From Xanthobacter sp. NM-59 (GTDB taxonomy: Bacteria; Pseudomonadota; Alphaproteobacteria; Rhizobiales; Xanthobacteraceae): 64,000 nt of DNA. The position numbers and the translations under genes are program-made. The notes under the pieces are model-generated. The model was not told the DNA's origin. It saw nothing but the letters and a program-made list of their open reading frames with translations, and ran no database searches. Positions 32,546-36,026 of the stretch are shown here, in pieces. The stretch spans positions 248,001-312,000 of the forward strand of contig NZ_JACBFQ010000001.1 of assembly GCF_021401125.1 (NCBI RefSeq), written 5' to 3'. Positions within the stretch are counted from its first letter, which is position 1. Each line of letters begins with the position of its first letter.

Positions 32546-32709
32546 ACCCCTGGGCTTGCTTCGCCGGTATCGCAAGGGAAGCTGCGCCGAAAGTCGAGAG
32601 CGGCAATTGGCCGCCGCTCTCCTCGCGCAAGCGTGAGCGTTGGGCGGTATCGTCTGGTTGGAATATTTGTAGGGTGTGGCCTCTTCCGAATCCGCATTTG
32701 GAGCAGAAG

Positions 32710-33144
32710 ATGCGTCTTTTCGTGACCGCCGCCATTGTCGGTGGCCTTGTTGCAGCCACCGCCGCCTACGCCCAGGGCAATGTCATCCAGCAGCGCCGCG
32801 CGGCGATGAAGGCGATCGGCGAGCAGACCGATATCGGCGCCTCGATCCTGAAGGGTAAGGTGCCGTTCAGCACCGACAAGGCCCAGCTGATCTTCCAGAC
32901 CTACAAGGACAAGATGGTCGGCTTCGAGAAGCTGTTCCCGCCTGGCTCCGATGCCGGCGAGACCAAGGCCACCGCCGCCGTGTGGAGCGATCGCGCGGGC
33001 TTCGATGCCGCCATCACCAAGTTCAATCAGGCCGTGGCCGAGAATGCGGCCAAGGGCGTGGTGGACGAGGCGGGCTTCAAGACCGCTTTCGCCGCCGTGG
33101 CCGAGAACTGCCGTTCCTGCCATCAGACCTACAAGTCTCGCTGA
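32710..33144 (+). CDS. Cytochrome c'
   Basis: A 144-residue periplasmic cytochrome c' with a signal peptide (residues 1-22, cleavage after AYAQ region), a four-helix-bundle pattern and a C-terminal haem motif CRSCH (Cys134, Cys137, His138). These proteins have a five-coordinate haem, bind NO and CO and may protect against nitrosative stress. GGAG is present upstream. The convergent neighbour is a cytochrome b561, a frequent partner. A good terminator lies downstream. Confidence 0.93.
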   Translation: MRLFVTAAIVGGLVAATAAYAQGNVIQQRRAAMKAIGEQTDIGASILKGKVPFSTDKAQLIFQTYKDKMVGFEKLFPPGSDAGETKATAAVWSDRAGFDAAITKFNQAVAENAAKGVVDEAGFKTAFAAVAENCRSCHQTYKSR

Positions 33145-33322: not shown

Positions 33323-34051
33323 TCAGCCACCCAGCTGGGTCACGGCGAACACGCCGGCGGCGGCCAGGGCCAGCAGCACGAGGGCGAGCGGCACCGGCGC
33401 CAAGCGCGGCGCGGCAATGGCGGCCGGCAGGCGCTTCCAGCCGGTGACCATGGGGCGCACCAGATCCTGCCGCAGCAGCACCGCATAGGCGATGATCGCG
33501 AGCACATGCAGCGCCACCGCGATCATGATGAGATCGAACGACAGGCCATGCGCCACCGTAAGCTGGTCGCTCAGCTCGCCACTCACTAGGTCGGCGAGGG
33601 GGCCGCTGGTGAACAGTCCGTCATTGGCGAACAGGCCGGAAACGGTCTGGAACAGCAACAGGGCCAGCAGCGCGACCACCATATAGGCGCCGGCGGCATT
33701 GTGCCCCGTCTCCGGCTCGGGCTGGCGCTTCAGCACGTGGCGCAGGTGGTCGATGGCCGCCGCCGGGCTGCGCACGAAGGAGGCAAAGCGCGAGGTCTGG
33801 CTGCCGAACAGACCCCAGAGAATGCGGAAAAGCACAAGGGTGAGAATGGAGTAGCCGGCATAGAAGTGCCAGTCGATCCAGCCATTGCGTGCCGTGACGT
33901 AGGACGTGGCCACGAGCGCCACCAGTGTCCAATGGAACAGCCGCGTCGGCGCATCCCAAACCTTGATCCAGCGCCAGGCGCCGCCCATCGTCTTGCCACG
34001 CGCGCTGGCCGCGGGCGGGTTGGCGCCGTCGCGCAAAAGGGTGTCGGTCAT
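33323..34051 (-). CDS. Cytochrome b561-type membrane protein
   Basis: A 242-residue four-helix membrane cytochrome b (prokaryotic cytochrome b561/Ni-hydrogenase b-type fold). Helix-associated histidines suited to haem ligation are visible in TRLFHWTLVA (helix 1), DWHFYAGYS, and SDQLTVAHGLSF / VALHVLAI (helices 3-4), and a further helix is near the C-terminus (ALVLLALAAAGVFAV). Start at MTDTLLRDG with AGAGGA upstream. Convergent to cytochrome c', which it may reduce from the quinol pool. Confidence 0.9.
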   Translation of the reverse strand: MTDTLLRDGANPPAASARGKTMGGAWRWIKVWDAPTRLFHWTLVALVATSYVTARNGWIDWHFYAGYSILTLVLFRILWGLFGSQTSRFASFVRSPAAAIDHLRHVLKRQPEPETGHNAAGAYMVVALLALLLFQTVSGLFANDGLFTSGPLADLVSGELSDQLTVAHGLSFDLIMIAVALHVLAIIAYAVLLRQDLVRPMVTGWKRLPAAIAAPRLAPVPLALVLLALAAAGVFAVTQLGG

Positions 34052-34300
34052 CGCGTCCTCTCTTGCAAAGGGCGACCGGCCGGCATTCACACGCCGGCGG
34101 GCGCCTGCTGGCGCTTCTTCTAGCGGCCCGCCGTGAACGGTAGAAGCTCACCTTATGAAAACGTGATCGCGCGCGGCCACTTTCAGTGACATTGCCGGCG
34201 CGAAGATCGTAAGCTCATGGGGCAGATCCGAGGTTTTCAGTCGGATCGCTTTGTGACGCGTGTTTTGCCGCGCGGATTTTTTCGGAATTGAGAGATTGCC

Positions 34301-34687: not shown

Positions 34688-34920
34688 GGCGGCGTCGCGG
34701 GCCTCGGGAAGGGGCTGCGGGTCTCTGTTTCGCGCCATTTTGTCGCTGAGGTTGTGCCGGTTGTATCAGATTAATTTCTAGGCACGCGCGAAATTACAGC
34801 AATATCGCCGTCGCTGCCGCTTGCGTGGGGCGGCGGCCTCTCCTACCGTCCGTTATATAATTTTCATGCCGAGCGCTTTTTGTCGCCGCGGCGGGGCCGT
34901 TTCGGCCAGGAGGACGTTGC

Positions 34921-35091
34921 ATGGCCTCGGATAAGAGCTCGACGCCCATTCCCGTGCGCTTTGTGCCCGGCACGGCGGTGCGCATTTCGGCGCCCTGGCA
35001 GAGGACCGGCAAGGACGTGGCGCGCTCCCGTGCCGGCCTGCGTCTCGTGGCCCGTGCGCCCGAGCCGACAAAGACCGAGACCAAGGACTGA
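34921..35091 (+). CDS. Small basic hypothetical protein, 56 residues
   Basis: A short gene with an excellent Shine-Dalgarno sequence (AGGAGG eight bases before the ATG) and codon use like its neighbours. The product (MASDKSSTPIPVRFVPGTAV...) is basic, without cysteines or membrane segments, and ends in an acidic/basic tail (EPTKTETKD). It ends 29 bases before the haemoglobin-fusion gene, so the two are probably co-transcribed. No family recognised. Confidence 0.6.
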   Translation: MASDKSSTPIPVRFVPGTAVRISAPWQRTGKDVARSRAGLRLVARAPEPTKTETKD

Positions 35092-35120: not shown

Positions 35121-36026
35121 ATGACGACATCGTCCACCCCCACGTTGCAGACCTCGGCCGTGCCGCTGGGCGCCGGCCAGTCTCGTGGATCTTCCACCGG
35201 TGTTGGGCCCCATCTGCCCTCGGCGTCCGCCGGGAAAGCGGATTTTGGCGGCGTGTCGTTCGTTGCCGCACCTAAGGCGCCGGCGCGCCCTGGCATCTTC
35301 ATTCTCACCCGCTCCATCGGCGACCTCGCCTATCCCGCTTATATCGGCGAGGCGGAGGACATGGCGCTGGCGGAGGAGGCGGTCCGAGCGGCATTGCCGG
35401 CGGAAACCGCTGTCACGGACGGTCTGTTCTACATGGAGCGTCCCAATGCGCGCCTGCGGGCCCATGCCCTTCATGACTTGGTGGGCAAGTATGATCCGCC
35501 ATTGAACACCACGGGCCGCAAGGGCCCGGCCGCGCCTGAGCTGGCCGCCCTCATCGCCGATCGCGCGGACGTGTGGCCGAATGGGGCGCGGGAGCAGCTG
35601 GCCAGCGAAATTCACGTCACTGAGGCCGATCTCGACCGGCTGGTGCGGGAGTTCTATGCGGCGGCTGGGCAGGACCCGCAGCTGGGCCCCATTTTCGCCC
35701 GGGCCATTCCCGATTGGGAAGAGCACTATCGGATTGTCGAGAACTTCTGGTCCCGCGCATTGCTCGGTACCGGCCGCTATACGGGCAATCCGTTCTCCGC
35801 GCACATCTCGCTGCAGCTGAAGCCAGAGCATTTCACCCGCTGGGTGGCGCTGTTCACGCAGACTGCCCGCCGCGTGCTGGAACCGGCAGCTGCTGACCGG
35901 GCCATCGCCAAGGTGGAGCACATGAGCACCTGCTTCCAGGCTGGGCTGTTTCTGCCTCCGGTGAATGGCGGCGCGCATCCTCACGCCGCGCTTCCCGGGC
36001 TGCATGGCGCACCCCACCACGCCTGA
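35121..36026 (+). CDS. GIY-YIG-like domain fused to group III truncated haemoglobin
   Basis: A 301-residue two-domain protein. Residues ~165-277 match group III 2/2 haemoglobins: Tyr179 at position B10 (REFYAAAGQDPQLGPIF), the E-F segment NFWSRALLGTGRYTGNPFSAH with proximal His228, and Trp241 in RWVALF. Residues ~55-130 resemble a GIY-YIG nuclease fold: PGIF (58-60), YIGEAED (74-80) and a terminal YDPPLN (124-129). The catalytic arginine and glutamate expected in such nucleases are not found, so this part is probably non-catalytic. The first 50 residues are low-complexity. Start ATG follows CAGGAG. Confidence 0.85.
   Translation: MTTSSTPTLQTSAVPLGAGQSRGSSTGVGPHLPSASAGKADFGGVSFVAAPKAPARPGIFILTRSIGDLAYPAYIGEAEDMALAEEAVRAALPAETAVTDGLFYMERPNARLRAHALHDLVGKYDPPLNTTGRKGPAAPELAALIADRADVWPNGAREQLASEIHVTEADLDRLVREFYAAAGQDPQLGPIFARAIPDWEEHYRIVENFWSRALLGTGRYTGNPFSAHISLQLKPEHFTRWVALFTQTARRVLEPAAADRAIAKVEHMSTCFQAGLFLPPVNGGAHPHAALPGLHGAPHHA

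Follow-up and report, generated by a model that had tools for sequence, protein, structure and literature searches.

A group III truncated haemoglobin joined to a degenerate GIY-YIG domain in Xanthobacter and the possible meaning of the pairing

When a truncated haemoglobin forms only the C-terminal half of a protein, the question is what the other half is and whether the two halves have a job in common. Such a gene lies in the window analysed here, which is a stretch of 64,000 nucleotides from the 4.96 Mb genome of Xanthobacter sp. NM-59. The original prediction, made from the letters alone, had joined a group III 2/2 haemoglobin to a degenerate GIY-YIG-like domain, had seen in the latter a DNA-binding or former nuclease module and had suggested a small upstream gene as a possible partner. 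The open reading frame had been placed correctly, with its ATG at 35121, the end of its stop codon at 36026 and a product of 301 residues, and its parts are given in Table 1. The comparisons that follow are based on 12 distinct fusion sequences that were left after the overlap between a search of the genus and a scan of species genomes had been removed.

Table 1. Features of the fusion locus (positions in the window)
Feature	Positions	Strand	Basis or remark
Small protein of 56 aa with VPGT...PW as core motif	34921..35091	+	same orientation as the fusion; stop codon 29 bases upstream of its ATG
Fusion protein of 301 aa (pseudo-GIY-YIG domain and group III truncated haemoglobin)	35121..36026	+	ORF, phmmer/profile and AlphaFold searches
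N-terminal tail, residues 1-41, variable	35121..35243	+	alignment; residues 1-28 of low model confidence
Degenerate GIY-YIG domain, residues 42-130	35244..35510	+	profile, hhalign, AlphaFold and structure searches
Linker, residues 131-165	35511..35615	+	alignment and model
Group III 2/2 haemoglobin domain, residues 166-280	35616..35960	+	2ig3 match, alignment, tree, structure
Fusion-specific H-helix signature KVEHMSTCFQ, residues 264-273	35910..35939	+	12/12 fusions

Residues 168-275 matched the group III truncated haemoglobin of C. jejuni (Ctb or trHbP, 2ig3) at E=3.5e-13 when the single sequence was used with phmmer, and a profile search reached E=2.3e-18. The full-length AlphaFold model of the fusion, which has a pTM of 0.58 and a pLDDT below 50 at residues 150-162, aligned with 2ig3 over 116 residues (VIA Z 15.5, rmsd 2.6). 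Y179, F192, H202, H228 and W241, which we take to be B10, CD1, E7, F8 and G8, respectively, align with the pocket residues of 2ig3 and are invariant in all 12 fusions, and with this the reading of the C-terminal half as a group III 2/2 haemoglobin, made on its Tyr, proximal His and Trp landmarks, held. The likeness to the C. jejuni protein extends over the entire C-terminal domain, including the B10 Tyr, E7 His, F8 His and G8 Trp, whereas 2ig3 is a 127-residue chain that has neither the GIY-YIG part nor the H helix with KVEHMSTCFQ. Judged by these residues, the C-terminal domain should bind haem and O2/NO.

The N-terminal half could not be named by family models, as Pfam and NCBIfam reported none for this half of the single fusion protein, and the domain had no Pfam match in ten fusion members scanned as single sequences. 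Three unrelated family models that came up at E about 0.02, in one member each among ten members, were set aside, and so were four PHROGs families of unknown function, the best of which reached E 0.0071 in one member. When a profile of the ten fused domains was searched against 177,635 PDB sequences, seven matches were obtained up to E=10, and the top five were UvrC GIY-YIG domains (E 0.019-0.61), the remaining two being at E=0.8 and 0.86. The best of these matches, 1yd2, is by its entry title a Y19F mutant of UvrC and thus has this Phe in common with the fusions. A profile of eight fused domains and three stand-alone relatives found UvrC entries at E=1.1e-4, a value to which two of the added relatives contribute as they are intact nucleases by their residues, the third being degenerate. 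In hhalign, the fused domains aligned with 13 UvrC domains over 82 columns with a score of 25.1 and a one-pair E of 0.001 at a probability of only 21%; a positive control, Slx1-type GIY-YIG domains against UvrC, scored 24.5 at a probability of 22%, and six negative controls (reversed or globin) scored 8.0-12.2. The score against the Slx1-type set was lower (18.8 over 33 columns), which places the link of the N-terminal domain on the UvrC side.

Since the list of VIA matches to the whole model consisted mostly of globins, the N-terminal domain was folded alone, which gave a mean pLDDT of 87.1 and a pTM of 0.81 and a model with two short strands followed by strand, strand, helix, helix, strand and helix. 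Against the PDB, Foldseek ranks 1-9 were UvrC GIY-YIG chains (E 2.1e-4 to 3.1e-3), rank 10 was the N-terminal domain of a plant glutaredoxin, 2lwf, at E=0.015, and rank 11 was at E=1.4. The first 14 rows in VIA had Z 9.4 to 5.0 and the next row had Z 2.7. These 14 rows comprise UvrC, 2lwf, T4 EndoII, I-TevI, R.Eco29kI and two 5hmC restriction enzymes, the last two of which are presumably also of the GIY-YIG kind. The available text of one paper lists EndoII as a GIY-YIG member (PMC1564403) and that of another places I-TevI and 2LWF in this kind (PMC9071465). The closest likeness is to the UvrC GIY-YIG domain (1ycz, 1yd2-1yd6), with VIA Z 9.1-9.4 and rmsd 2.0-2.5 over 78-80 residues. Endonucleases and GIY-YIG phage proteins were among the best matches in BFVD, but they were discarded at E values of at least 0.0036 and mostly poor rmsd, and no relative turned up among the viral contigs scanned. 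Taken from the predicted structure together with the sequence profiles and the hhalign controls, the N-terminal domain is a GIY-YIG nuclease fold. The structure prediction could have gone against the fold that had been proposed for this half; instead it yielded that fold, and the PDB profile, the hhalign controls, Foldseek and VIA all bear it out.

The fold is thus retained and the next question is whether the active site is. UvrC residues are numbered here with R39, E76 and G31 counted along the profile alignment, so that F60, Y74, G76, A84, V88, L117 and N129 of the fusion stand at what we take to be Y19, Y29, G31, R39, Y43, E76 and N88. The first Tyr is Phe60 and the catalytic Arg is Ala84 in every one of the 12 fusions, and the place of the metal-binding Glu (residue 117) is taken by Leu in seven, Ala in four and Val in one. 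The second Tyr, at residue 74, is kept in seven (Phe in one, Leu in four) and the Y43 place is variable. The Gly is kept as in UvrC, and the C-terminal Asn of the motif is present in 12/12 as N129; this Asn is missing from the Slx1 family according to the available part of PMC1564403. UvrC differs in having the Tyr, Arg and Glu of the active site and a strong basic charge, both of which are lost in the fused domain. The original prediction of Phe for the first Tyr and of no catalytic Arg or Glu was therefore right for all 12 fusions and not for the window copy alone, and a GIY-YIG fold without Arg and Glu in all of them supports the term former nuclease. By its residues, the fused N-terminal domain is a pseudo-enzyme from which no cutting of DNA is expected.

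The nearest analogue that we found is the plant protein GRXS16, in which a GIY-YIG domain likewise stands N-terminal to a redox/metal domain, and its N-terminal domain 2lwf aligned with the model of the fused domain over 88 residues (VIA Z 8.5, rmsd 4.5). In the available text on GRXS16, the GIY-YIG and glutaredoxin domains are described as restraining each other and as possibly joined by a disulfide (PMC5890173). This analogue raises the idea that the fusion is still an active nuclease whose active site is unusual and which the haem domain switches in the way that the glutaredoxin domain switches GRXS16: the order of the domains is the same, the partner domain in GRXS16 lowers the activity (PMC5890173, in the part available), and 2lwf is among the structural matches. 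However, GRXS16 carries a glutaredoxin where the fusion has a globin, its nuclease is active and its proposed link is a Cys disulfide, whereas the fusions have lost Arg, Glu and the first Tyr in 12/12 and have the second Tyr in only seven. The sole Cys of the window protein is C271, which sits in the H-helix signature of the globin; its N-terminal domain has no Cys and a GRXS16-type disulfide is therefore impossible. An active nuclease is thus very improbable.

A pseudo-nuclease could still bind nucleic acid without cutting it, and the protein would then be a gas-responsive DNA- or RNA-binding regulator. The fold itself is in keeping with this, as are three invariant Arg (R107, R111 and R113, before and within the last helix) and the kept N129. 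The eight Xanthobacter copies of the fused domain have a net charge of -3 to 0, the three Rhodopila copies of +1 and the Rhizobiales copy of +2; the range is +4 to +10 for 13 UvrC GIY-YIG domains and 0 to +15 for 17 GIY-YIG sequences of the same order, which came from 17 of 25 loci. A charge below that of UvrC makes DNA binding less likely than had originally been implied, and the catalytic places are now filled by Ala, Leu and Phe, with no added HTH or zinc finger reported by Pfam. The positive values in Rhodopila and Rhizobiales nevertheless speak for such a regulator, and two intact stand-alone relatives have a net charge of only +1, which means that low charge alone does not exclude work on DNA and also that part of the charge loss may predate the fusion. 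On balance a nucleic acid regulator is unlikely, although far less so than an active nuclease.

These stand-alone relatives, small proteins without a globin, were the closest sequence relatives that profile searches found outside the fusions. Four of them from the same class (L043, L049, L108 and L109) resemble the fused domain, as seen in DLIARYNPPLNTQHR of L049 against DLIGKYHPPLNTEHR of a Rhodopila fusion, but differ from it in that the catalytic Arg and Glu are present by eye and the globin is absent. L049 scored above the Pfam cut-off of GIY_YIG_2 (PF20815), and a search of 41 related genomes with PF20815 gave one match, from the same order. Another relative (L044, 1426-1791 in its context L106) has kept the Arg and lost the Glu by eye, and its gene lies directly behind one that reads like an allophanate hydrolase or amidase. 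Three more (L110, L112 and L113), from three genomes of one other family, seem by eye to lack both residues, and their contexts (L115-L117) have no neighbours in common. In the contexts of five stand-alone proteins (L106, L115-L118), BLAST found one similar pair of open reading frames besides the domain proteins themselves. As the stand-alone relatives range from intact through partly to fully degenerate, catalysis may have been lost more than once in this branch, and the fused domain is probably derived from such a stand-alone protein.

Of the 14 genomes examined from the genus, the host included, eight were found by whole-genome search to carry the fusion, as against none of 47 other genomes of the family and order, and the nearest named relatives of the gene are from Xanthobacter species. 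Among 385 genomes drawn from the class, the host genome alone matched at E<=1e-30. A pattern-based scan of 84,980 species genomes, which detects close relatives only, gave ten loci, namely nine fusions (five from Xanthobacter, three from Rhodopila MAGs and one from a Rhizobiales MAG) and one remnant. When the family to which one Rhodopila MAG belongs was searched (249 genomes), that MAG alone gave a strong match and five other genomes gave weak ones. Weak matches in G027 (E=9.8e-4, two stops) and fragments in G023 and G004 were not counted as fusions, and six more (L045, L047 and L050-L053) were judged spurious on reading the sequences. Although 173 plasmid records matched, none did so over 80% of the fusion protein, and the 20 listed among them matched mainly the globin part. 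Xanthobacter and Rhodopila belong to different families, and horizontal transfer of the fusion is therefore likely. In X. autotrophicus DSM 432 (L041:5000-6400), only a short remnant of the globin part is left, a decayed copy of the gene.

This patchy presence and the remnant in DSM 432 could be taken to mean that the fusion is accidental or decaying and that its N-terminal half is functionless. The dN/dS values (NG86) contradict this: the GIY-like domain had values of 0.09-0.25 and the globin of 0.07-0.16 in seven pairs, which were chosen as close from 66 possible ones and are partly non-independent, and of which the pair of the window and X. agilis has a dS near 1, close to saturation. The N-terminal tail had values from 0.07 to 0.90, above those of the GIY-like domain in five of the seven pairs. 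The N-terminal domain of the window copy is 42-72% identical to that of nine other fusions, and the 12 distinct fusions show that the domain pair is conserved, so that the check on homologues also came out in favour of the N-terminal region. These ratios indicate that both domains are under purifying selection, and a functionless N-terminal half is scarcely credible.

If both halves are maintained, the fusion may still be nothing other than an enzyme that handles O2 or NO, a NO dioxygenase or an aid to respiration like trHbP, in which the pseudo-nuclease only helps folding, oligomerisation or placement and no signal is passed. The pocket residues are those of trHbP, and the available part of PMC4106858 states that Cj-trHbP reacts very fast with NO and that a role in respiration has been proposed. 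Genes for a cytochrome c' and a cytochrome b561, as named by Pfam, lie upstream in the window (32674-33144 and 33323-34090) and would suit such an enzyme, though this synteny is common only to the window and X. agilis among nine loci compared. For this reason these two neighbours, along with a Sel1 protein and an AAA/APH protein, were set aside as functional context; the wider neighbours are not conserved across the groups and the context therefore yields no function.

The comparison with other globins weighs against a plain enzyme. A second globin match, without the N-terminal domain, is present in all eight fusion-bearing genomes of the genus. In a tree with 23 globins that lack the N-terminal domain, the fused globins form a single clade (support 100/100, with a long stem that measures 1.36 changes per column), which allows one origin of the fusion and is no proof of it, and KVEHMSTCFQ is identical in 12/12 fusions and found in 0/23 of these aligned globins. 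A second globin, the strong divergence and the new signature in the H helix together suggest a separate job for the fusion, and a plain O2- or NO-handling enzyme is for us doubtful, if less so than a nucleic acid regulator. The signature is what would be expected if that face of the globin had met a new partner. H267 and C271 of the same helix are invariant and form a possible contact or redox site. In the linker, the first part is conserved, with R133, E140, A142-A143 and D147-R148 invariant, and the second part is variable.

A candidate for a partner is the product of the small gene directly upstream. The small protein could be aligned in six loci of the genus (the window and five others), and VPGT..PW is common to all. 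A profile of it matched in 9 of 61 genomes, including all eight with the fusion, and in each of the eight the gene precedes the fusion match in the same orientation, at a distance of up to about 210 bases. The ninth genome (G008), which has no fusion, gave a weak match (E=1.9e-4); two matches in G005 are likely a single gene seen at the ends of two contigs, and G012 gave a further, weak match at E=0.008. Of five loci measured, three have gaps of 29, 30 and 150 bases between the two genes and two have a 4-base overlap, and dN/dS of the small gene was 0.33, 0.20, 0.17 and 0.24 in four pairs. Five loci with the small gene, when compared, had three different sets of wider flanks. In a MAG of X. 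autotrophicus (L033, 2-1060) the small protein and the fusion are in one uninterrupted frame, in which the fusion ATG is still preceded by the Shine-Dalgarno-like AGAAGGA. This may be a natural fusion of three parts (small protein, pseudo-nuclease and globin); the small proteins could not be aligned with this one-frame protein by MAFFT. In the three Rhodopila loci and the one Rhizobiales locus, reading the 438-495 bases ahead of the fusion by eye showed no relative of the small gene, nor did BLAST of their open reading frames, and the small gene is thus no obligate partner everywhere. The part of the original prediction that made this gene a possible partner gains support in the genus, where it is upstream of eight fusions out of eight, and does not extend to the Rhodopila and Rhizobiales loci. 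As to transcription, a TATAAT is found at 34856-34861 upstream of the small gene and also in X. agilis; a scan with the sigma-70 consensus gave no site, and in seven loci three simple patterns found no box of the FNR/NnrR type in the stretch of at most 400 bases that precedes the small gene.

What kind of protein would have these features? The explanation that we prefer, at a probability of roughly 0.45 and thus somewhat short of an even chance, is a pseudo-nuclease to which a partner docks and which either is controlled by the haem globin or serves to position it; the partner in Xanthobacter would be the small protein. We infer that haem and its gaseous ligand are bound by the globin and that the H helix peculiar to the fusions and the conserved linker would relay the ligand state of the haem to the pseudo-nuclease domain. 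This domain would be a non-catalytic docking or regulatory module that holds a partner protein, and the best candidate for that partner in Xanthobacter would be the small protein encoded just upstream, whose gene and that of the fusion are probably on one transcript. Docking or regulation is favoured by the lack, in the N-terminal domain, of the strong positive charge of its relatives. The basis for this mechanism is indirect and consists of the kept fold without catalysis, the low charge, the H-helix signature, the linkage of the small gene and GRXS16 as a precedent. A fuller version, that the truncated haemoglobin is part of a new class of haem switch, in which it reads O2/NO and drives the pseudo-nuclease to grip the co-encoded small protein or a nucleic acid, the three parts perhaps being one polypeptide in one lineage, is possible and we hold it more tentatively.

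How does this pairing relate to what has been described? In the available part of PMC1457004, chimeric globins are divided into two groups, flavohaemoglobins and globin-coupled sensors, and truncated haemoglobins are placed among the single-chain globins. The fusion resembles globin-coupled sensors in that a haem globin is attached to another domain, but the sensors described there have a 3/3 globin at the N terminus and the variable part at the C terminus (PMC1457004), whereas in the fusion the module is N-terminal and the globin, whose best match is group III 2/2, is C-terminal. The literature searched, which leaves most subscription journals outside its scope, gave no description of a GIY-YIG domain paired with a truncated haemoglobin, nor of an inactive GIY-YIG domain with heme. 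Papers that name both GIY-YIG and globin were mostly on genome editing or gene therapy, and by title none was on such a fusion. The word 'globin' is absent from the available part of a 2006 survey of GIY-YIG architectures (PMC1564403), and the words 'fusion' and 'fused' are absent from that of PMC4720485. Both domains are known and it is their pairing that seems undescribed within the literature that could be searched.

The fusion is a case of a GIY-YIG domain that has been retained by selection after the loss of its catalytic residues, and intact stand-alone relatives are at hand for comparison; GRXS16 is a parallel from plants, where the neighbour of the GIY-YIG domain is a redox module. What the group III truncated haemoglobin does is described as unclear or elusive in the literature, and a conserved fusion to a pseudo-enzyme would offer a way to find out with what such a globin communicates.
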